Of a stretch of DNA of 50,975 nucleotides, positions 6,428 to 43,409 are shown one piece after another (within the stretch, counting starts at the first letter, position 1; every line of letters begins with the position of its first letter). The notes beneath the pieces are model-generated. The model made no database searches. It was not told the DNA's origin and saw only the letters and a program-made list of their open reading frames with translations. The translations under genes were made by a program, and so were the position numbers. Source of the DNA: an uncultured Desulfovibrio sp. (lineage in GTDB: Bacteria; Desulfobacterota; Desulfovibrionia; Desulfovibrionales; Desulfovibrionaceae); assembly GCA_949291675.1 (NCBI GenBank), contig CASEWR010000026.1:1-50975 (forward strand), written 5' to 3'.

Positions 6428-7645
6428 CTACTTGCTGCTGTCTTCCTCAAGCTGCTTCTTCACCCTGGCGTACTGGCCGAGGCGCAGGGAGTTGAGGCGG
6501 ATGAAGCCTGTGGCATCGTGATGATCGTAATTGCTGGCTTCAAAGGTGGCCAGTTCGGCGTTGAAGAGGCTGTAGGGGGACTTGCGGCTCAAAGGCCAGA
6601 TGCCGCCCTTGTAGAGCTTGGCAGTGACGGAGCCGGTGACGTTCTCCTGCGCCTTGTCCATGAAGGCCTGCATGGCTTCGCGCTCAGGGCTGTACCAGTA
6701 GCCGTCGTACACGGCCTCGGAGTAGCGCACAGCCAGCTGATCCCTGATGGAGAGCAGGTTTCTGTCCATGCACAGGCCTTCCAGGTCCTGATGCAGCACG
6801 TAGAGGATGGTGCCTGCGGGGTTCTCGTACACGCCGCGACACTTCATGCCCACATAGCGGTTCTCCACGATGTCGCTTCTGCCCACGCCGTGTTTGCCGC
6901 CGATTTCGGCAAGGCTCTTGATCATTTCGTAGGGAGACAGGCGCACGCCGTTCAGGGCCACGGGGTTGCCGCGCTCAAAGTCCACGGTGATGATTTCCGG
7001 TTCATCGGGAGCCTGCTCCACGGGCACGCAGCGCTCGTGGCAGACAGGGTCAGGAGCAAGGCCCGGATCCTCGAGCTCTGAGCCTTCAAAGCTGGTGTGC
7101 AGCATGTTGGCGTCCATGCTGTAGCGCTTGGCACCGCTGGAGATCGGAATGCCGTTGGCTTCAGCAAAGGCATTGAGGGCAGTGCGGCTCATGAGGTCCC
7201 ATTCTCTCCAGGGAGCAATGACCCTGATGGCAGGGTCAAGGGCCTTGGCAGAGAACTCGAAGCGCACCTGGTCGTTGCCCTTGCCTGTGGCACCGTGGGC
7301 AATGGCGTCAGCGCCTTCCTTGTGGGCAATGTCAATAAGAGCCTTGGTGATGAGCGGGCGGGCAATGGAGGTACCGAGCAGGTACTTGTTCTCATAGATA
7401 CCGGCAGCGCGCACCATGGGGAAGACAAAGTCCCTGGCCATTTCCTCACGCAGGTCAAGCACATAGGCCTTGACGGCACCGGTCTTCAGGGCTTTTTCCT
7501 CCACACCGCTCAGGTCTTCGGGCTGGCCGAGGTCGGCAGTCACGGTGACCACTTCGCAGTTGTAGGCAGTGATGAGCCATTTCAGGATGACCGAGGTGTC
7601 GAGGCCGCCGCTGTAGGCGAGCACGACTTTCTTGACATTTGCCAT
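6428..7645 (-). CDS. argG: Argininosuccinate synthase
   Basis: 405 residues. It joins citrulline and aspartate with ATP to give argininosuccinate in arginine synthesis. The N-type ATP pyrophosphatase P-loop [10 protein letters not shown] is at residues 10-19. The family signatures [13 protein letters not shown] and [13 protein letters not shown] are intact, and the length is normal. ATG at 7643-7645 is preceded by AAGGAG with 7-nt spacing. The gene lies between pyk upstream and its own terminator; carB (whose product feeds citrulline synthesis) follows from a separate promoter. The leader holds a T-rich 15-bp tandem repeat. Confidence 0.98.
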
Positions 7646-7660
7646 GTGAGCACTCCTTCA

Positions 7661-7702
7661 AAAAAAGTACTGAACAAAAAAGCACTGAGCAAAAAAGCAC
7701 TA
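7661..7702. repeat. 15-bp tandem repeat in the argG leader
   Basis: About three copies of AAAAAAGCACTGAGC (plus-strand reading), ending only 5 bp before the argG Shine-Dalgarno. On the transcript each unit gives a U6 run followed by GYTCAGTGC-like sequence. Confidence 0.8.
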
Positions 7703-7704
7703 AA

Positions 7705-7757
7705 AAGCGGGCTGTCCGTCTGCTCTCCTGCGCAGGGAGCAGGGGGCAGACGTGAAG
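7705..7757 (-). terminator. Possible pyk terminator
   Basis: A GC-rich imperfect hairpin just past the pyk stop (arms containing GTCTGC and GCAGAC, with an inner CTGCTCC / GGAGAGCAG pairing). It is followed on the minus strand by CCGCTTTTTAG. The stem has bulges, so efficiency is uncertain. Confidence 0.4.
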
Positions 7758-7763
7758 GCCGCA

Positions 7764-9191
7764 TTACTTGTAGAAAATCTTGATGAGGTTGGTTCCACGG
7801 GCAGAGCTTGCCTGGGAGCTGCGGAACTGGCCGGCAGTGATGACCACGCAATCGCCCTTTTTCAGGGCATCGTTCTTCAGAATGAAGTTCTCGGTCCTGT
7901 AGAGGTGACTGGGCTCGGTCTCGGGCTCTTCCACCAGCACAGGGGTCACACCCCAGGAATAGTTCAGGTACTTGACCGAGGAATTTTCCGTGGTGAGGGC
8001 GTAGATGGGCTGCGGAGGCCTGCAGGAGGAGACCTTGCGGGCCGAGGCGCCGCTCAGGGAATGGATCACAATGGCCTGGGCCCTGGCCTTCTGGGCCAGC
8101 AGGCAGGCGGAGTAGGCCAGATAGGAGGGGATGCCGCGCTGGGTGCTGGGCTCCTCAAGCGTGTGCCTGGCTTCCATGATGGCCTCAGCCTCATCGGTGA
8201 TGCGGCGCATGTAGGCCACAGTCTCCACCGGGAAGTTGCCCATGGCCGTCTCTTCCGAGAGCATGACACAGTCAGCGCCATCGAGCACGGCATTGGCCAC
8301 GTCCGTGGTCTCTGCCCTGGTGGGCGAGGGGGAGTTCACCATGGAGAGCAGCATCTGGGTGGCCACAATGACGGGCTTGGAGGCTTCGTTGCAGGCCTTG
8401 ATGATGTGCTTCTGAATGCTGGGCAGCTTGGGCAGGGGGCATTCCACGCCAAGGTCGCCGCGGGCCACCATGACAATGTCTGCCTCTGCCAGGATGGCAG
8501 GCAGGTTGTGGACTGCGTTCTCGCGCTCAAGCTTCACACAGACAGGGATGAAGCGCAGGCTGTGCTTGTTGATGAGCTCCTTGGCCTCGCGCACGTCGTC
8601 TGCTGTCTGCACGTAGGACATGGCCACAGCGTCCACGCCAAGGCGGATGCCGTCGGTAAGGTCGCGCTTGTCCTTTTCGGTGAGGGCGCGCACGCGGGTG
8701 GTCTTGCCGGGCAGGGCAAGGCCCTTGCGGGAGGTGACAAGGCCGTTGTTCTTGGCCTGGAGCACGATGAGGTGATCATCGCGGCGCTCCACGACTGTGA
8801 ACTCAAGGCCGCCGTCTGCCAGCACAAGTCTGTCACCGGGCACCAGGGAGTCCAGCACTTCCTCGTGGTCAAAGGGCAGGTAGGGCATCTCGGTGGTGTA
8901 GCGGCCAGTGGTGCCGAGCAGAAGCTTCATGCCCTGCTGCACGTGAATGCTGTCCTCGCGGATTTCGCCAAGACGGATCTTGGGACCGGAGAGGTCCTGC
9001 ATGATGGTCAGGGGAATGCGAAGGTCACGCTCGACAGTGCGTATACTCTTGATGATGTCCACAAAGTCCCTGGCAGAGCCGTGGGAGAAGTTCAGGCGAA
9101 AGATCGAGGCGCCTGCCTGTGCCAGAGCCCTGATTTTTTCCGGGCTGCTGGAGGAAGGGCCGAGTGTGGCGACGATTTTTGTTTTGTTCAT
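7764..9191 (-). CDS. pyk: Pyruvate kinase
   Basis: 475 residues from ATG 9189-9191, the usual length; the frame stays open upstream to 9449 but that part is not pyruvate-kinase-like. It converts phosphoenolpyruvate and ADP to pyruvate and ATP. Visible signatures are the N-terminal MNKTKIVATLGPSS, substrate/metal segment MVARGDLGVE, KPVIVATQML, and the C-terminal allosteric domain from about residue 350. The start was chosen because family members begin MxxTKIVATxGP. The Shine-Dalgarno is weak. A 784-bp gene-free region lies upstream. Confidence 0.95.
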   Translation of the reverse strand: MNKTKIVATLGPSSSSPEKIRALAQAGASIFRLNFSHGSARDFVDIIKSIRTVERDLRIPLTIMQDLSGPKIRLGEIREDSIHVQQGMKLLLGTTGRYTTEMPYLPFDHEEVLDSLVPGDRLVLADGGLEFTVVERRDDHLIVLQAKNNGLVTSRKGLALPGKTTRVRALTEKDKRDLTDGIRLGVDAVAMSYVQTADDVREAKELINKHSLRFIPVCVKLERENAVHNLPAILAEADIVMVARGDLGVECPLPKLPSIQKHIIKACNEASKPVIVATQMLLSMVNSPSPTRAETTDVANAVLDGADCVMLSEETAMGNFPVETVAYMRRITDEAEAIMEARHTLEEPSTQRGIPSYLAYSACLLAQKARAQAIVIHSLSGASARKVSSCRPPQPIYALTTENSSVKYLNYSWGVTPVLVEEPETEPSHLYRTENFILKNDALKKGDCVVITAGQFRSSQASSARGTNLIKIFYK

Positions 9192-35101: not shown

Positions 35102-35770
35102 TTACTCTTCTCCGACATCATCTATCTGTTTTGCAAGTCTTCTTCCAGATTCCAGGTAGTGTTCACGTAATGTATATTCAATAACCTGAACGTTCTTGCT
35201 CTTTACTGCATCTAAAATAAGTCTGTGCCGTTCATAAAACTCATCAGGAGTAAAGAGCGTATTCCAGGCTTTGTAGTAGAGAAATTTTGAAATATGTGAA
35301 CAAGACTTACGAGCAACATCAATCATCAGAGAATTATGGCACTTGCTCATGAGTGCATCGTGGAATTTTTCATCAATTTCACTCATGGAAGACAGACCAT
35401 CGACAGTCTGACTCAGTGCCTTCATTTCCGCAAGGATGGCATCAAAATCCGCCAAATCTGCCTTGGTAATCTTCGGGAGAGCCAGGGTAATGCACACTCC
35501 TTCCAGTGTGCCCCCAAGGAAATAACTTTCCTCTATTTCCTTCGCGGACATAGCACGGATACGTTTGCACTTTTGCGGTGCTCCCATGACCAGCCCTTCC
35601 TGTTGCAGGGTCATAAGCGCATCGCGGACTGGACCACGGCTAATCCCCAGGGACTCGGCAATCTGGCTTTCCTTAATGGGATCACCTGGGCGCAACGTGC
35701 CATTTAACAGGCATTCCTTGATGTACTCACGTGCCTGTTCGCTGAAGGTTGAACATTTGGGGGCGATCAT
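35102..35770 (-). CDS. GntR-family transcriptional regulator (FadR/FCD type)
   Basis: 222 residues. The N-terminal winged helix-turn-helix (about 10-70) has IAESLGISRGPVRDALMTL. The C-terminal all-helical FCD ligand-binding domain (about 85-210) carries His residues typical of metal/carboxylate ligand sites (KFHDALM, YERHRLILDA). FCD regulators commonly sense organic or amino acids. It lies downstream of, and on the same strand as, a transport/catabolic operon, but is separated by a terminator, with its own promoter region. Probable local regulator of that operon (inference). Codons are more AT-rich than in the dcw genes. Confidence 0.9.
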   Translation of the reverse strand: MIAPKCSTFSEQAREYIKECLLNGTLRPGDPIKESQIAESLGISRGPVRDALMTLQQEGLVMGAPQKCKRIRAMSAKEIEESYFLGGTLEGVCITLALPKITKADLADFDAILAEMKALSQTVDGLSSMSEIDEKFHDALMSKCHNSLMIDVARKSCSHISKFLYYKAWNTLFTPDEFYERHRLILDAVKSKNVQVIEYTLREHYLESGRRLAKQIDDVGEE

Positions 35771-35859
35771 TACAACTCCGCGGTAAGGTACTGGAAAAAT
35801 ACTGGACTTTTTCTGGCGGTACGATTTTTTGAGTATACAGTCATGAAAAATCCTGATGA

Positions 35860-35871
35860 AGTTATATAACT
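35860..35871. promoter_or_regulatory. Palindrome AGTTATATAACT at the probable gntR promoter
   Basis: A perfect 12-bp palindrome overlapping the probable -10 region of gntR, 90 bp upstream of its start. A GTATAC core lies nearby at 35833-35838. Candidate operator for autoregulation; inference only. Confidence 0.4.
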
Positions 35872-36075
35872 ATTGATCGATGCCAGAATGTCAAGGACTT
35901 GCAGGGAAGTTTTTTGCCTACAACTCTTTTCTGTTATGCCATATTTAATTTGTAAAATTTTATGCAAAACAATATGCACAAGAACATAAGCATAGTATTT
36001 TAATATTCTTCTTTGTGTTGATTCAAAAACTTGTCATAATTTAGTCAACTTGTTCTTTTGTAGAGTTAAATAAAC

Positions 36076-36106
36076 AAAAAGCACCGTTGTAAAACGGTGC
36101 TTTTTT
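36076..36106. terminator. Bidirectional terminator after nhaC
   Basis: AAAAAGCACCGTT-GTA-AAACGGTGCTTTTTT: a strong stem flanked by A and T runs. It ends the symporter-racemase-lyase-nhaC transcript on the minus strand. Confidence 0.85.
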
Positions 36107-36169
36107 GAAAAATCAAATTATGTAGCAGCTGCTCTTGTTTTATGTATTGATTTACAAAGATGAATGAGG

Positions 36170-37573
36170 CTAGTTGGAAGACGCAGGTCCGGCACCTTCA
36201 GCATAGCGTCTGTTCCAGCCGGTTATGGCAGAGAATATGATGACAGCAAGAAGGGTCCAGGAATACGGATTGAGCAGGGCAGTAGCAACGGACGGTGCAG
36301 GTATGTCCCAGGCCTGAGCCGCACTGACCAATGCTCCATACCAGGCAGCAACGGCAATATGCCAGGGCAGGATAAAGAAGATTGTACACACTGCGCAGTC
36401 CATGAGATTGGCACGTCGTGCAGGTGCAAGCCCAAAGCGCTCACCCATGGGCCTGACCAGACTCGGCCCCACAAGCAGTTCAGCAGGTGCGTTGGCAGAA
36501 ATGGGGATGGATGCCAGAACAGTAGAGCCAATGATGAACAGTTCAGCCTGCCGCACAGTGTGAACCATCTTTTCATGGGCATAGTTCAGGATGCGCTGCA
36601 TAACGCCGCAGTCAACCAGGATACGTGTGACTGCGAGAATCAGAATGGCAAAGATGATGGCACCGACAACACTTTCAACACCAGCCTGAATGAGACCAGT
36701 GCTTGCACCAGCCTTTTCGGGGATGCAGAAGATGTCCGAGAGGGAAATGTTGCCAATGCATATGCCCACAACGGCTGCAGTGACATTGCCGTAGATGAGA
36801 GCCTCAATAATGTGTCTGCCGCGCAGTGCAGCCACCACAACGACGACAAGAGCCAGAAGCATGAAGATGCCGCTCGGATTCAGAGTTGCCTCCATCTGCG
36901 GAGCTACTCTGATTTCTCCTCCGCCACCGAAGAGAAGGAAGATGACGCCGGCGATGGCAGCAGCTGTAAGTGAGAGTGGTGCTCTGCTGCGCACGACGTC
37001 TTTCATTTCTGCCCCCTGCGTGTAGGCAGAAACGATGGTGGTATCAGAAATGGGGGCAAGATTGTCGCCGAAGGCAGCTCCGGAAAGTATTGCCGTACCA
37101 AGCAGCGCAGGATCCGCTCCAAGGTAGACGCCAGCCGGATAGAGCACAGGAGTCAGAGCAATACAGGTACCGGTACTTGTTCCGGTGCCAAGAGAAAAGG
37201 TCATGGCTGCCAGGAAGACCAGGAAGGTGAAGGTTGCTTCAGAAGCGCCTGTGGACATTCCCATCCACAAAAGCCCCTGAACAAGTCCGCCTGCTGCCAT
37301 CAGCTTGCCAAACACGCCGGCAAAGAGCCATGCAGTGACGATGACAATGCCGTTTTCGTCACCGATGCCCTTCATGGCAGAATCACAATACCTCTTTTTG
37401 TCCTTCGCAAAGAACAAACCAATGCAGAGAGCCAGCCAGGCGCATGCCCAGAAAGGCTTTGTACCGCCCCGTTGAGCTACTGACAGAGCTATGAGGCCGA
37501 TGACAAGGATGAGGAGAGGAATGAGGCCGCCCCAGATGCCGCCATACATGCGCAAGGGTGTCTTGTTTTCCAT
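36170..37573 (-). CDS. NhaC-family Na+/H+ (or substrate/cation) antiporter
   Basis: 467 residues with about eleven predicted transmembrane helices. Family signatures include LGTGTSTGTCIALTPVLYP (about 128-146) and AAFGDNLAPISDTT (about 166-179), a hallmark of NhaC. Most members export Na+, but the family also contains metabolite antiporters such as malate/lactate exchangers. Here it follows an amino-acid lyase with a 178-bp gap. It could restore the Na+ gradient used by the upstream symporter or exchange a product; the sequence does not decide. ATG 37573 with GGGGGA upstream. Confidence 0.88.
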   Translation of the reverse strand: MENKTPLRMYGGIWGGLIPLLILVIGLIALSVAQRGGTKPFWACAWLALCIGLFFAKDKKRYCDSAMKGIGDENGIVIVTAWLFAGVFGKLMAAGGLVQGLLWMGMSTGASEATFTFLVFLAAMTFSLGTGTSTGTCIALTPVLYPAGVYLGADPALLGTAILSGAAFGDNLAPISDTTIVSAYTQGAEMKDVVRSRAPLSLTAAAIAGVIFLLFGGGGEIRVAPQMEATLNPSGIFMLLALVVVVVAALRGRHIIEALIYGNVTAAVVGICIGNISLSDIFCIPEKAGASTGLIQAGVESVVGAIIFAILILAVTRILVDCGVMQRILNYAHEKMVHTVRQAELFIIGSTVLASIPISANAPAELLVGPSLVRPMGERFGLAPARRANLMDCAVCTIFFILPWHIAVAAWYGALVSAAQAWDIPAPSVATALLNPYSWTLLAVIIFSAITGWNRRYAEGAGPASSN

Positions 37574-37751
37574 AGGATCCCCCGAAGTACTGCATTGTGC
37601 AGAAAGCAGGCAGTACAGGTAGTGAAAAAGACAATGTTGTCCGGGAAGGTGAAGGCGGATTTGAGAATGGCAGAACCCCTGGATATACAGGAGCTCTGCC
37701 AGACTATAAGAGGATTGCGTCCGTCAGGAGGACGAATATGGAGAGGGAGTC

Positions 37752-38765
37752 TTAGAAGCGAGCGTCCTTGCGGAAGGTATCAAGGTAGGCATACAGAGCC
37801 GGAGAACCGCCTGTATGGAGGAAGAGCAGGTTGCTGCCAGGCTTGAAGTGATCCTTGCGGACAAGATCAATGAGGCCGGACATGGCTTTGCCGGAGTACA
37901 CAGGATCCAGAAGGATGCTTTCTGTGCGGGCCAGCATGACCACTGCTTCAACCATTGCATCTGTAGGCAGGGAATAGCCGGGACCCACGTAATCATCGTA
38001 TGCCACGACAGCTTCTCTGGGGATATCAAGCTTGGCGCCAATCAGCTCGGCAGTCTGCTGAGCAAGGGTGTAGACAGCTTCTTCCTGGACGGGCTTTTTA
38101 CGATTCACGCCAATGCCGGTGATCGGGATGTTCATGTTGCAGCCGACCATGCCCAGCAGGAAGCCGGCATGCGTCCCGGCGCTGCCGCTGGGAACGATAA
38201 TGTGGTCGAAGTTCAAGCCGGTCTCAAACATCTGCTGCATGGTCTCCTGAGCGCACTGCACGTACCCGAGAGCGCCAACGGGATTGGACGCACCGCCGGG
38301 AACAATGTAGGGCTTCCTGCCTTCAGCAGCGAGCTTGTCGGCAACCTTCTGCATCTCTTCAGCCATGTTGCTGCCGCCCTTGACGACAGTGATGCTTTTC
38401 ACGCCGAGCAGCTGATAGAGGAAGTTATTGCCGGAGGACTGGGGATTGTAGCTGTTTGCAACACGCTCTTCCAAAACAAGGTGACAATCGAGGCCTTCCT
38501 TGACGGACCAGGCCAGGGTGAGACGGGCGTGGTTGGACTGCACGGCACCGCAGGTAATGATGGTGTCTGCGCCCTTGGCAAGAGCATCAGCAATGGAGAA
38601 GTCAAGCTTGCGGGTTTTGTTACCTCCGCCAGTTCCAGGCAGGAGGTCGTCACGCTTCATATAGATGTTGACTTTGCCGCCGAGAGCCTTGGAAAAGCTG
38701 GGCAGATACTCAATGGGGGTAGGTTGTTTGACATATCCACGACGAGGGAACTGAGCAAGATTCAT
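37752..38765 (-). CDS. PLP-dependent D-cysteine desulfhydrase / L-cysteate sulfo-lyase family enzyme
   Basis: 337 residues, fold type II PLP enzyme of the ACC-deaminase/DcyD/CuyA group. The PLP lysine is Lys50 in GGGNKTRKL, and QSNHARLT (Gln76-Ser77-Asn78-His79) forms the substrate/PLP loop. VPSGSAGTHAG and a C-terminal HTGGSPALYAY are also family motifs. Relatives either split D-cysteine to pyruvate, ammonia and H2S (DcyD) or L-cysteate to pyruvate, ammonia and sulfite (CuyA). The N-terminus (FPRRGYVKQPTPIEYLPSFS) resembles both groups. The neighbours (acidic amino-acid symporter and racemase) favour a substrate with an acidic side chain, hence cysteate, as an inference. Confidence 0.88.
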   Translation of the reverse strand: MNLAQFPRRGYVKQPTPIEYLPSFSKALGGKVNIYMKRDDLLPGTGGGNKTRKLDFSIADALAKGADTIITCGAVQSNHARLTLAWSVKEGLDCHLVLEERVANSYNPQSSGNNFLYQLLGVKSITVVKGGSNMAEEMQKVADKLAAEGRKPYIVPGGASNPVGALGYVQCAQETMQQMFETGLNFDHIIVPSGSAGTHAGFLLGMVGCNMNIPITGIGVNRKKPVQEEAVYTLAQQTAELIGAKLDIPREAVVAYDDYVGPGYSLPTDAMVEAVVMLARTESILLDPVYSGKAMSGLIDLVRKDHFKPGSNLLFLHTGGSPALYAYLDTFRKDARF

Positions 38766-38821
38766 TCTTGTCTCCTTGTTTTGATGATAAGGTGGTAGAA
38801 TGGAGGGGAAGGAATCTCTTT

Positions 38822-39538
38822 CTACCGGGTTGGAAAAGGAAGAGTGTTTTTCGCTATGCCGACAATAGCCTTGGCCAGGACGTCAGCGGCATCAATGACA
38901 GGGCGGGGGTATTTTGCATCATGCAGAATACCAAGCTCTGTGCATGCAATCACCAGGGCATCTGCTCCCTGCCCGCAGACATCAGCAATGACAGTCTGAT
39001 AGCTTTCGTACACTGCAGGGCCCGTATCACCTGTTTTTATCTTCTTGATAACAGCAAGCAGCTGCTGTTCCTTTTCAGATGTCGCATAGACAGGTTCAAT
39101 GCCAAGACGCCGGCAAGGTTCTTCATACAGCTTTGTAATGCGAACAGCAGGAGAACAGAGTATGCCTGCTTTTCTTGCTCCAGGACATGCCTCAGCAACT
39201 GCAGCTGAGGTCAGTTCCACCATGTTTAATACAGGGATGGAGACTGCATCCTGGACATCCTTGTAGTAGTTGTGAGCCGTGTTGCAGGGAATACAGAGAA
39301 AATCCGCGCCCCACTGCTCCAGCTTTCTTCCCATCTCCGCCAGGCACGGACCGGGTGAGACGCTTCCGCCTTCAAGGAGTGCCTTGATGCGCGAAGGGAC
39401 CTTGGGGTTGTTGTCAACAATGCAGCGGACATGATCAATGTCATCCTGAGCATGGGTGAAGTGAATGACGCGCTGCATCAGGTCAACTGTCGCTTCAGGT
39501 CCCATTCCACCGAGGATTCCGGCTATCTTTTCAGCCAT
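38822..39538 (-). CDS. Aspartate/glutamate racemase family protein
   Basis: 238 residues. PLP-independent two-cysteine racemase fold. GILGGMGPEATVDL (about 7-20), first catalytic Cys85 in IPCNTAH and second Cys199 in IACTEL are all present, so it should be active. The family (RacX/YgeA/AspR) inverts aspartate, glutamate or related amino acids. It lies 15 bp after the symporter gene and 56 bp before the PLP lyase, so it probably converts an imported enantiomer into the form the lyase uses. The exact substrate is not readable. Confidence 0.9.
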   Translation of the reverse strand: MAEKIAGILGGMGPEATVDLMQRVIHFTHAQDDIDHVRCIVDNNPKVPSRIKALLEGGSVSPGPCLAEMGRKLEQWGADFLCIPCNTAHNYYKDVQDAVSIPVLNMVELTSAAVAEACPGARKAGILCSPAVRITKLYEEPCRRLGIEPVYATSEKEQQLLAVIKKIKTGDTGPAVYESYQTVIADVCGQGADALVIACTELGILHDAKYPRPVIDAADVLAKAIVGIAKNTLPFPTR

Positions 39539-39553
39539 AGGTCAACGCCTGCC

Positions 39554-40777
39554 TTATCCTTCCAGCTTTGCACCGCGTTCTTCATCCAGGTCATTTTCGA
39601 GACGGGAAACGAAGACTGCGCCAGTGGCATCACCAAGGACGTTGATGGTCGTGCGGGCCATGTCCATAATACGGTCTACACCAGCAACCAGGGCGATGGC
39701 TTCCAGCGGGATACCGACCTGAGTGAAAACCATGGTCACCATGAGGAGAGCAGCACCGGGCACGCCCATGGAACCGATGGAAGCGAGGATGGCCATAATG
39801 ACGATGGTGACCTGCTTATCCATGGGCATGGGGATGCCATAGACCTGTGCCGCAAAGATGGAGGCAATGCCCATATAAATGGCGGCACCGTCCATATTGA
39901 TGGTGTTACCCAGGGGAATTGAGAAGGTGGAAACCTGCTTGGAGGCACCCAGCTTCTGCACACCAAGCAGGTTTGCAGAAAGGGCTGCAGCAGAGGAGCA
40001 GGTGCTGAAGGCAATCATGAGAGGAGCAGACAGCACCCTGAAGAACTTTGAGGTCTTGATGCCGGAAAAGCGCACGCAGGGCAGGTACACAAAGATAATC
40101 TGGCAGAGACTGGCCACATACATGATGACGACCAGCTTGATGAGCGGCAGAAGAACTGCAATGCCGTGATTGGTGACTGTTACAGCCATCAGGGCAAAGA
40201 CACCAATGGGGGCATACAGCATGACAACTGTAGTGACCTTGATCATGATTTCAGACATGCCCTCAAAGAAAGAGGAGACAGTCTTTGTCTTGTCACTGCA
40301 CATGTTGATGCAGATGCCAATGAGAACGGCAAAGAAGATGATCTGAAGCATGTTTCCCTTGGCAAGAGCGTCCATGGGATTGATAGGAACAATGCCAAGA
40401 AGAACTGCAGAAAGGGGTGGAGGAGTGACATTCTTTGCCTGGAGGTTGTCCTTGGAGAGATCAAGACCAACGCCAGGTTCAAAAATATTGGCCAGAATCA
40501 GGCCGATGATAATGGCAATAGCAGTTGTCACCAGGTAGTAGACAAGCGTCTTCGTGGCAATGCGGCCAAGACAGCGTACATCACCAACACTCGCTGCACC
40601 GGCAACAAGTGTGACGAAGACGAGAGGGACAACAACCATGCGGATCAGGTTGATAAACAGCTGCCCGAAGGGTTGGAAGTAACTTGCTGACCAGCCCATA
40701 CTTGAGGCCAGCAATCCGACGATAACACCCAAAACCATGCCAATGCCCATTTGCATGGGCAGTCCCATCTTTTTCAT
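39554..40777 (-). CDS. Dicarboxylate/acidic amino acid:cation symporter (DAACS, Glt family)
   Basis: 407 residues, an inner-membrane elevator-type transporter with eight helices and two hairpins. TSxSSAA-type HP1 serine motif (STCSSAAAL), NINMDG-type TM7 motif (NTINMDGAA; Ala where many members have Thr), and TM8 DMARTTINVLGD. The TM8 Arg and Asp correspond to residues that bind the side-chain acid and amino group in glutamate/aspartate transporters, so an acidic side chain (carboxylate, or a sulfonate/sulfinate analogue) is expected. ATG 40777 chosen for GGAGGG 7 nt upstream. First gene of the operon. Confidence 0.93.
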   Translation of the reverse strand: MKKMGLPMQMGIGMVLGVIVGLLASSMGWSASYFQPFGQLFINLIRMVVVPLVFVTLVAGAASVGDVRCLGRIATKTLVYYLVTTAIAIIIGLILANIFEPGVGLDLSKDNLQAKNVTPPPLSAVLLGIVPINPMDALAKGNMLQIIFFAVLIGICINMCSDKTKTVSSFFEGMSEIMIKVTTVVMLYAPIGVFALMAVTVTNHGIAVLLPLIKLVVIMYVASLCQIIFVYLPCVRFSGIKTSKFFRVLSAPLMIAFSTCSSAAALSANLLGVQKLGASKQVSTFSIPLGNTINMDGAAIYMGIASIFAAQVYGIPMPMDKQVTIVIMAILASIGSMGVPGAALLMVTMVFTQVGIPLEAIALVAGVDRIMDMARTTINVLGDATGAVFVSRLENDLDEERGAKLEG

Positions 40778-40847: not shown

Positions 40848-40861
40848 AAATGTTAACATTT
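40848..40861. promoter_or_regulatory. Palindrome AAATGTTAACATTT upstream of the symporter
   Basis: A perfect 14-bp palindrome 71 bp before the symporter start. It has the GT...AC half-site style of many GntR operators and would lie near or just downstream of the possible promoter. Candidate operator; inference only. Confidence 0.45.
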
Positions 40862-41146: not shown

Positions 41147-41884
41147 TTACTTGCCGCCCAGGGGCAGGAATTTCTCAACCCCCATGCAGAAGGCAATGCC
41201 AAGTCCCTCCTGCTGCAAAAAGTCGGTTGTACGGATGGCTTCCAGGATGTTGCGCGAGCTGTCGGCACTGGCCAGGATGAGCAGGATGTCCTTCTCAGGC
41301 ACAATGGAGATGCCGAAGAACTTTGCGTCTTCTTCCCTGGCAGTGCCTCTGCCGTGCAGAATGGTGCCGCCTGTGGCACCGGCCTTGCGGGCTACGGACA
41401 TGATGTCTTCTGCGTAGCCTGCGTTGATAATGACAGTAATGAGTTCGTGGCTGGCTGGGGTGCTTGTGCTCATGCTTGTATCCCTGTGGGCAAGCGACAG
41501 CACGCTTGCTCTGTGAAGTGCAAAGACGTCAATGACGAAAAGAATGCCCTTGACCTTTTTTCTGACCCATTCCGAAGTGTGCAGGGCCGTCATGATGGAG
41601 TCGGTGGTTTCCGGAGTGGCAAGAATGAGGACGATTTCCTTTCTGCTGTCTCCAAGACCAAGCATCTGCAGGAGGTCACTCTTTGCCGTACCGCGGCCAA
41701 GAAGAATGGTGCCGCCGGTTGCGCCTGCTTCCTTGCTGATGCTGACAATGCGCTCGCCGTGCTTGCGGTCCACGATGCAGCAGAGCAGCTTGCAGCCTTC
41801 CATTGTGATGGCAGGGCCAGTCTGTATGCTATCCATGAGACTATCCTTGAAGCTGTCCTTGAGGCTGTCCTTGAGACTATCCAT
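41147..41884 (-). CDS. Tandem PII-like signalling protein
   Basis: 245 residues, two PII-like (ferredoxin-fold) halves in one chain: about 30-120 and 145-245. Each contains the nucleotide-loop motif GATGGTILxGRGTA and an I(V/L)LILA strand. Single PII proteins are about 110 residues, so this is a fused duplicate. Most likely it binds a nucleotide and gates the adjacent DUF1538 membrane protein, as PII proteins do for transporters. The N-terminus DSLKDSLKDSFKDSLMDS is made by a 12-bp repeat. Two in-frame ATGs (41884 and 41836) each have AAGGA 7 nt upstream; the first overlaps the upstream gene by 8 bp. Confidence 0.85.
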   Translation of the reverse strand: MDSLKDSLKDSFKDSLMDSIQTGPAITMEGCKLLCCIVDRKHGERIVSISKEAGATGGTILLGRGTAKSDLLQMLGLGDSRKEIVLILATPETTDSIMTALHTSEWVRKKVKGILFVIDVFALHRASVLSLAHRDTSMSTSTPASHELITVIINAGYAEDIMSVARKAGATGGTILHGRGTAREEDAKFFGISIVPEKDILLILASADSSRNILEAIRTTDFLQQEGLGIAFCMGVEKFLPLGGK

Positions 41885-41902
41885 GAGGCTGTCCTTGAGT
41901 TC
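41831..41902. repeat. 12-bp tandem repeat at the DUF1538/PII-like junction
   Basis: Six units of (A/G)TCC(A/T)TGAGGCT type (plus strand). They cover the end of the DUF1538 gene, its stop, and the start region of the PII-like gene. The array duplicates the AAGGA + ATG initiation signal on the minus strand. Confidence 0.9.
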
Positions 41903-43409
41903 TCTCTCTTCGGGCAGCCCTGTTGCGCTCTCTGCGTTCCCGCAGGAGCTTCTGCTCCTTGCGATGGAAGAGGATACCCAGAATCTGAATGGTGATGAGG
42001 GGCATCATGGCAATCATGGCAATGACACCGAAGGCGTCAGTGATGGGATTGCCGCCAAGAGCCGCTGAGGCACCAAGGGTGAAGGCCAGAATGAAGGTTG
42101 AGGCCATGGGGCCGGAGGCAACGCCGCCTGAGTCAAAGGCAATGGCCGTGAACATCTGCGGGCAGAAGCGCATCAGTCCCAGGGCCAGGGCATAGCCGGG
42201 AATGAGCAGCCACCACAGGCTGATGCCATAGATGACGCGCATCATGGAGAGGCTCACAGCCAGAGCCACGCCCAGGGAAAGCGAGGCCAGCATGATATTG
42301 CGCTTGATGTGGCCGCCGGACACTTCTTCGATCTGCTCGTTCAGCACCCACACTGCAGGCTCTGCGCAGACCACCACAGCGCCGAGCACAAGGCCCACCA
42401 CCATGAAGATCCACGTATGGCCGAAGGAGGCCAGGGAGGCGCCGAGCACGCTTCCTGCAGGCATGAAGCCGCCCTGCACGCCCACAAAGAAGAAGATCAG
42501 GCCGATGAAGGTATAGACAAGACCGACACTCATGCGAATGAGCTGGGTCCTTGGCATCCTGATGAGGAAGAGCTGGAAGACAATGAACATGGCAACCAGG
42601 GGAGCCAGGGCCATGGACACTTCCTCAATGACATGGGGGATGCGGCTGGTGAACTGGGCTAGCAGGGAGAGCGGCTCTGTGGCAGCCTCGGCTGCAGCTG
42701 CAGCCGTCTCTGTGTGCATGCCCGTCTTTGCCGAGATGACGCCCAGGGTGATGACTGCCAGGATGGGGCCGATGGAGGCCAGGCCGATGAAGCCGAAGCT
42801 GTCCTGTTCGGCATGTCTTCCCCCGCGCACAGAGGCCACACCAATGCCCAGCGCCATGATGAAGGGCACGGTCATGGGGCCTGTGGTGGCACCGCCGGCA
42901 TCAAAGGCAATGCCCAGGAAGTCCGCAGGTGCAGCGGCTGCACAGCAGAAGAGCAGTACATAGAAGCCTGCCAGGGCCAGCTTGTAGGAAAAGGCAAGCA
43001 GAATGCGGCCAACTGCCACCAGCACAAAGATGCCCACGCCCATGGCTATCATGAAGACCAGGCTCTGGCTGGAGATGGCAGGATTGACGCTCAAGACCTG
43101 CTGGGCCAGCACGTGGACGTCTGGCTCTGCTATGGTGATGAGAAAGCCGATGACAAAGGCTGCGATGAGCAGGAGGAAGACGTTTCGTTTGGAGGTGATG
43201 GCGGCACCGGCCTTCTGCCCGATGGGCACCATACCGAGCTCTGTACCGTGCAAAAAAATACCAAGGCCCACGATGACAAGTGCCCCGCCGACAAGGAAGG
43301 GCCCAAAGGCATCACCCATGGGAGCAATGGTCAGGTGCAGCAGTACCCCGATGGCCATGATGGGAATGACCGAGATGACGGATTCCCGGATTTTTTCAAA
43401 AAGCTGCAT
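41877..43409 (-). CDS. DUF1538 family membrane protein (putative transporter)
   Basis: 510 residues, two homologous membrane halves of about 230 residues. The first half has FDAGGATTGPMTVPFI (about 167-182), and the second has FDSGGVASGPMASTFI, the DUF1538 duplicate signature. About 13-14 helices. Function is not established; the re-entrant-looking GGxxxGPM segments and a PII-like partner suggest a regulated transporter. The C-terminal tail is Arg/Lys-rich (about 485-505). ATG 43409 has a weak Shine-Dalgarno. It overlaps the PII-like gene downstream, so the two are co-translated. Confidence 0.88.
   Translation of the reverse strand: MQLFEKIRESVISVIPIMAIGVLLHLTIAPMGDAFGPFLVGGALVIVGLGIFLHGTELGMVPIGQKAGAAITSKRNVFLLLIAAFVIGFLITIAEPDVHVLAQQVLSVNPAISSQSLVFMIAMGVGIFVLVAVGRILLAFSYKLALAGFYVLLFCCAAAAPADFLGIAFDAGGATTGPMTVPFIMALGIGVASVRGGRHAEQDSFGFIGLASIGPILAVITLGVISAKTGMHTETAAAAAEAATEPLSLLAQFTSRIPHVIEEVSMALAPLVAMFIVFQLFLIRMPRTQLIRMSVGLVYTFIGLIFFFVGVQGGFMPAGSVLGASLASFGHTWIFMVVGLVLGAVVVCAEPAVWVLNEQIEEVSGGHIKRNIMLASLSLGVALAVSLSMMRVIYGISLWWLLIPGYALALGLMRFCPQMFTAIAFDSGGVASGPMASTFILAFTLGASAALGGNPITDAFGVIAMIAMMPLITIQILGILFHRKEQKLLRERRERNRAARRERTQGQPHG

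Follow-up and report, generated by a model that had tools for sequence, protein, structure and literature searches.

Whether an operon that joins a carrier for acidic amino acids to a racemase and a pyridoxal phosphate (PLP)-dependent lyase serves the breakdown of a sulfonate is the question raised by a locus of an uncultured Desulfovibrio sp. (contig CASEWR010000026.1, analysed here over a stretch of 50,975 nucleotides, hereafter the window). Its five genes all lie on the minus strand, at the positions and in the order given in an earlier note on this DNA: SDF symporter, racemase, PLP lyase, NhaC-family carrier and GntR/FCD regulator. The gaps claimed there, 15 bp between symporter and racemase and 56 bp between racemase and lyase, are right, and a further 178 bp separate the lyase from the NhaC-family carrier. 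Judged from its sequence, this locus is probably an operon for cysteate dissimilation. The note's prediction that cysteate is taken up, racemised and cleaved finds support, with CuyA and CuyB scoring over their curated cut-offs and the gene set being co-conserved.

The lyase gene, cuyA (37752–38765, minus strand), encodes a PLP enzyme of fold type II (Pfam PALP, 176 bits), which scores above the NCBIfam model of D-cysteate sulfo-lyase (CuyA, NF052482; 521.5 versus a cut-off of 450 bits) and below the cut-offs of three D-cysteine desulfhydrase equivalog models (312.5 versus 429, 284.8 versus 610 and 284.1 versus 469 bits). In the NCBIfam scan it also fell under the cut-offs of the 1-aminocyclopropane-1-carboxylate (ACC) deaminase equivalog models. 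The D-cysteine desulfhydrase of Salmonella, StDCyD, as described in excerpts of PMC3344862, belongs to the same family and has the same active-site residues: K50, Q76, S77, N78, H79 and T318 of the window lyase align with StDCyD K51, Q77, S78, N79, H80 and T315 (the numbering being shifted by 14, as deduced from the PLP lysine), and each of the six is present in 93 of 93 CuyA sequences. The same excerpts state that the alpha proton of the D form is taken by Tyr287 in the Salmonella enzyme. This place is occupied by Y290 in the window lyase which, combined with the retained active-site residues, fits a D-selective lyase. However, the lyase is set apart from StDCyD not only by the desulfhydrase cut-offs but also by 38 positions that are conserved in at least 95% of the 93 CuyA sequences and different in StDCyD. 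The identification of the lyase as CuyA, predicted to cleave D-cysteate, is well supported. The note had cast it as an L-cysteate enzyme, whereas the preference of CuyA stated in the relevant passages of PMC11382572 is for D-cysteate, so that a racemase is needed.

The racemase gene, cuyB (38822–39538, minus strand; Pfam Asp_Glu_race, 132.6 bits), exceeds the NCBIfam CuyB model NF052483 (269.7 versus a cut-off of 190 bits). The two cysteines of Asp/Glu-type racemases that had been noticed in it, C85 and C199, are invariant in all 51 racemases compared, and its identification as CuyB, predicted to racemise cysteate, is likewise well supported. The pairing of such a racemase with CuyA was thought in the earlier note to lack a described pathway. 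This does not hold, and the pairing has been rejected as a novelty, because passages of PMC11382572 describe CuyB as interconverting L- and D-cysteate, with the D form preferred by CuyA, and cite J Biol Chem 2024;300:107371 for this chemistry. Since that description exists and both enzymes have curated NCBIfam models, the two enzyme steps are not new. The 2024 J Biol Chem paper is reportedly entitled 'Bacterial cysteate dissimilatory pathway involves a racemase and D-cysteate sulfo-lyase' and is said to concern Bilophila wadsworthia. What is added here to these known enzyme steps is detail on the carriers, the exchange of racemases, the joint loss of SDF and CuyB, and a candidate operator.

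Entry into the pathway is assigned to the SDF (Glt-type) symporter of acidic amino acids, the predicted L-cysteate importer (39554–40777, minus strand; PF00375, 395.7 bits). Its Asp and Arg in transmembrane segment 8 are kept, as had been claimed: D372 corresponds to D394, and R375 to R397, in an alignment with chain 3kbc (positions counted from the printed alignment), which we take to be acidic-substrate residues. The protein lies under the GltP equivalog cut-off (NF008440; 331.1 versus 638 bits) and is not filed as GltP. In the proposed scheme, this symporter would import L-cysteate, an analogue of aspartate; the two-cysteine racemase would convert it into D-cysteate; and CuyA would abstract the alpha proton from the D form, eliminating sulfite and leaving pyruvate and ammonia. 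Dissimilatory sulfite reductase would then reduce the sulfite, as electron acceptor, to sulfide, and the ATP cost of sulfate activation would be saved. The NhaC/MleN-family carrier would be the second transporter of the gene set, and the GntR/FCD repressor would release its palindrome upon substrate binding. The capacity for sulfite respiration expected of this organism is supported by dsrA in the genome (639.3 bits versus a cut-off of 392.85), where sat is found as well, so that the released sulfite could be respired. According to an excerpt of PMC6278857, cysteate is known to donate sulfite to anaerobic respiration, which yields hydrogen sulfide.

The conservation of this gene set was surveyed in 288 genomes of the bacterial family, with neighbours scored within 5 kb of CuyA genes and counts made per CuyA gene (94 genes in 91 loci, the window standing for its own locus). 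CuyA exceeded its cut-off in 85 of the 288 genomes, at 94 places, and CuyB in 27 of 288. The order SDF, racemase, CuyA, NhaC-type carrier and GntR is repeated in four other loci (L048, L051, L052 and L053), which makes a chance arrangement unlikely and agrees with the co-conservation expected beforehand. An SDF gene lies near 33 of the 94 CuyA genes (one of the matches, in L118, being short at 61 bits) and a racemase near 41; both are found near 29, SDF only near 4, racemase only near 12 and neither near 49 (Fisher p 1.1e-10). The association becomes broader when an L-cysteate source is defined as either an SDF carrier or HpsN with an aminotransferase: such a source is near 35 of the 41 racemase-bearing CuyA genes versus 6 of the 53 others (p 1.8e-13; both p-values ignore the relatedness of the genomes). 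By genus, the combination of SDF and racemase falls in g1, g6, g20 and g32. A racemase scan of genome contigs gave two loci, with Desulfovibrio sp. An276 and Candidatus Desulfovibrio intestinipullorum as named relatives.

The racemase slot is not always filled by the same kind of protein. The 51 racemases form two deeply separated groups, one of 25 and one of 26 members, joined in the tree by a long branch of the sort that, as the program warns, may be placed wrongly. Identity to the window CuyB is 33–100% in clade I, to which the window protein belongs, and 23–33% in clade II, whose members are putative cysteate racemases. Three clade II members scanned come near the CuyB cut-off of 190 (184.4–186.8 bits), and three genomes (G011, G044 and G103) have matches just over it (190.1–191.7 bits). 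The exchange is clearest at L067, which has the gene order of the window, with lyase, SDF and NhaC-type carrier 69–74% identical to those of the window, but a divergent, clade II racemase. Two deeply separate racemase clades occupy the same operon slot. On a CuyA tree of 93 of the 94 rows (one short row was dropped), the racemase label changes 11 times for clade I and 10 times for clade II, with L138 wrongly counted as clade II, its racemase being of clade I (97% identical to that of L050); such frequent changes indicate that the association does not go back to one event. In L138, the racemase next to CuyA (7615–8293 of that locus) is divided between two reading frames, with scores of 177 and 77, and is either broken or misassembled.

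A different source of cysteate is suggested by other loci of the family. HpsN is near 8 CuyA genes, six of them with a racemase, and in six loci (L045, L061, L062, L069, L070 and L072) an HpsN-like dehydrogenase, an aminotransferase, CuyA and a racemase stand together, with a different GntR and without the ATGTYRACAT site discussed below. These are likely, by their gene content, to encode a route from 2,3-dihydroxypropane-1-sulfonate (DHPS) or sulfolactate to sulfite, and they tie the racemase and the lyase to cysteate made inside the cell.

The role of the NhaC/MleN-family carrier (36170–37573, minus strand), predicted to carry D-cysteate or a product, required more revision. It had been called an NhaC antiporter that recycles Na+. 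The family stands, through Pfam PF03553 (Na_H_antiporter, 71.3 bits), but the curated NhaC model TIGR00931 is far below its cut-off (65.9 versus 370 bits), so that support comes from the broad Pfam family and from the fold. The structure model (mean predicted local distance difference test, pLDDT, 79.8) is nearest in the PDB to 9a59_A, an integrative model of MleN (template modelling score, TM, 0.68), followed by TRAP (tripartite ATP-independent periplasmic) carriers, one of them for isethionate; this comparison speaks to fold and not to substrate. A PDB sequence search with the protein gave no match at E 0.1, and no paper on NhaC-family sulfonate carriers was among the matches listed in the literature search. 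The carrier that stays with CuyA is at least 69% identical to that of the window (21 relatives aligned of 26 listed). NhaC-type carriers are near 29 of the 94 CuyA genes, 11 with a racemase and 18 (16 loci) without, and none of these 18 has SDF. Transport of a substrate or a product would better suit this pattern. The plain Na+ recycler has been rejected on these two grounds, the unmet TIGR00931 cut-off and the racemase-free neighbourhoods, and it is more likely that the protein moves D-cysteate or a product than that it is a housekeeping Na+/H+ antiporter. Other neighbours of CuyA also stand mostly apart from the racemase: DctM, belonging to a TRAP carrier, is near 18 CuyA genes, one with a racemase, and RidA near 30, four with a racemase. 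As a separate observation, some operons that combine CuyA with a TRAP or NhaC-type carrier but lack a racemase have, close to CuyA, a protein family of 409–416 amino acids (L071:10536–11765 and L074:10525–11775). It matched no Pfam model over cut-off, the one member scanned against NCBIfam had no match, and the PDB gave none below E 0.2.

A close relative (L110) has lost SDF and CuyB together. It is about 92% identical to L051 on two stretches flanking a gap, in which SDF and most of CuyB are gone between the palindrome and CuyA, while operator, CuyA, NhaC-type carrier and GntR are kept. Short traces resemble the beginning of the SDF region and the last part of the CuyB region, and the best match to the CuyB model in that genome is weak (E 1.6e-12). 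L092 and L048 show the same difference, which may be a gain or a loss. The joint loss of SDF and CuyB, with the NhaC-type gene retained, suggests that the role of this carrier may be to transport substrate and not to recycle sodium. It leads to a tentative proposal, to which we give somewhat less than an even chance: operator, CuyA, NhaC/MleN-family carrier and GntR/FCD would form a core that by itself imports and cleaves D-cysteate, and SDF with CuyB would be an L-cysteate adaptor, gained or lost jointly, whose racemase slot has been filled by two clades.

Control of the operon is attributed to the GntR/FCD protein (35102–35770, minus strand; PF00392 and PF07729), its predicted dedicated regulator. 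A perfect palindrome, AAATGTTAACATTT, at 40848–40861, lies 71 bp ahead of the start codon of the SDF gene and is the candidate GntR/FCD operator. It is the sole match in the window with at most two mismatches, 0.07 being expected, and AATGTYRACATT is found at one place in the 3.07-Mb genome. The degenerate form ATGTYRACAT has 70 matches in the 91 loci (1.17 Mb), 55 of which fall in the 25.9 kb upstream of CuyA operons (2% of the sequence), and it is present in 50 of 92 upstream windows. Among the 58 CuyA genes that have an orthologous GntR, 46 have the palindrome nearby. None of the 7 accompanied by the distinct GntR of HpsN operons has it, and 14 of the 29 lacking any GntR within 5 kb do. Where the GntR is at least 55% identical to that of the window, 13 of 14 have a site, none of them CG-centred, while among the 33 more distant orthologous GntR that come with a site, all 33 have ATGTCGACAT as the first one. 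Because the type of site follows the similarity of the GntR, regulator and operator are read as changing together. Most likely, the GntR/FCD protein is a repressor of the operon that acts at 40848–40861. The GntR gene has a G+C content of 46%, the other four operon genes 52–56% and the window 58%.

Several observations weigh against a cysteate operon under this control. Six CuyA genes with SDF or HpsN have no nearby racemase, and six racemase-bearing ones have neither SDF nor HpsN nearby; 33 of the 94 are no more than 5 kb from the end of a contig or stretch, where absences are soft. The palindrome is missing from 42 of the 92 upstream windows, some of which are cut short. Used to mark whole genomes, the CG-centred 12-mer AATGTCGACATT performs close to chance, with hits in 6 of 61 genomes of the order versus 4 of 61 for the reversed control; three of the six (G033, G060 and G078) are family members without CuyA over cut-off and the other three are outside the family. 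Taurinivorans muris has CuyA and did not grow with cysteate, according to an excerpt of PMC10507020, which could be explained by a missing racemase or importer. The lyase itself passes the broad subfamily model 'D-cysteine desulfhydrase family' (TIGR01275; 311 versus 289.4 bits), its closest PDB chain, 7ysk, is named D-cysteine desulfhydrase, and the excerpt of PMC10507020 says that CuyA acts as a D-cysteine desulfhydrase too. The last three points, together with the retained active site of the Salmonella enzyme, favour use or detoxification of D-cysteine or another D-amino acid, in which the lyase would be a desulfhydrase and the racemase would make the D form from an L-amino acid. This is improbable, given that the three desulfhydrase equivalog models stay below cut-off while the CuyA model is exceeded, and that an SDF carrier with the presumed acidic-substrate Arg is an unlikely importer of cysteine. 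Furthermore, other CuyA genes of the family sit with HpsN and an aminotransferase, a cysteate-making set in the route outlined in PMC11382572.

Use of aspartate or glutamate, with symporter and racemase serving D- and L-aspartate and the adjoining lyase in a separate role, is very improbable. The racemase does exceed the amino acid racemase subfamily model TIGR00035 (151.7 versus 93.1 bits) and has an aspartate racemase as its best PDB relative, as the symporter has an 'Aspartate transporter' (9bgz, 407.3 bits), but the CuyB model scores the racemase higher, at 269.7, the racemase adjoins CuyA in many genomes, and SDF and CuyB are jointly missing from the CuyA operon of a relative. It is rather unlikely, finally, that the same enzymes supply carbon and nitrogen from cysteate with sulfite merely disposed of. 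Pyruvate and ammonia are among the products, and cuyA of Ruegeria is listed with a sulfite exporter, cuyZ, in the part of PMC4334477 concerned; by Pfam, however, no CuyZ-type exporter is among the five operon genes, and dissimilatory sulfite reductase is present in the genome.

Dissimilation of cysteate, the preferred explanation, can be compared with known systems. The pathway of cysteate racemase and D-cysteate sulfo-lyase, as described in passages of PMC11382572, has both enzymes in common with the window, where cuyB and cuyA share an operon with SDF, the NhaC/MleN-family carrier and GntR/FCD. The cuyARZ genes of Ruegeria pomeroyi resemble the window in having CuyA with a regulator, but CuyZ is listed as a sulfite exporter (excerpt of PMC4334477), whereas the window operon has an importer and a racemase and no such exporter. 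The racemase gene of R. pomeroyi is given as unknown in a passage of PMC11382572. The HpsN–aminotransferase–CuyA route from DHPS or sulfolactate, outlined in the same source, ends in CuyA and a racemase, like the window. In contrast, the window operon is without HpsN and aminotransferase, so that its cysteate would come from outside.

As for the boundaries, a terminator-like hairpin 3' of the carrier gene (36076–36105, minus strand; 13-pair stem with a T-rich tail) and then the GntR/FCD gene are both at the place given in the earlier note, but the number of such hairpins in the region equals chance (8 found versus 7.7 expected from shuffles). A second one (41109–41085) separates the operon from upstream genes, and no promoter is claimed, since sigma-70-like sites are about as frequent as expected by chance (6 found versus 5.5 expected). 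Those upstream genes encode a 510-residue DUF1538 protein (41877–43409, minus strand), whose first half matches UmpA and second half UmpB, both below curated cut-offs, and a P-II-like protein (41147–41884, minus strand), whose gene overlaps the end of the DUF1538 gene. The pair may represent a UmpAB antiporter in fused form, together with a partner of P-II-like type.

The operon provides a concrete gene set (importer, racemase, lyase, second carrier, regulator and candidate operator) in a Desulfovibrio with gut relatives. It allows CuyA operons to be sorted by expected substrate, namely L-cysteate, D-cysteate or cysteate made in the cell, and offers a possible reason why some cuyA carriers do not grow on cysteate, the absence of a racemase or importer. 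If the division into a core and a detachable adaptor is true, the NhaC/MleN-family protein would be a new kind of sulfonate transporter.

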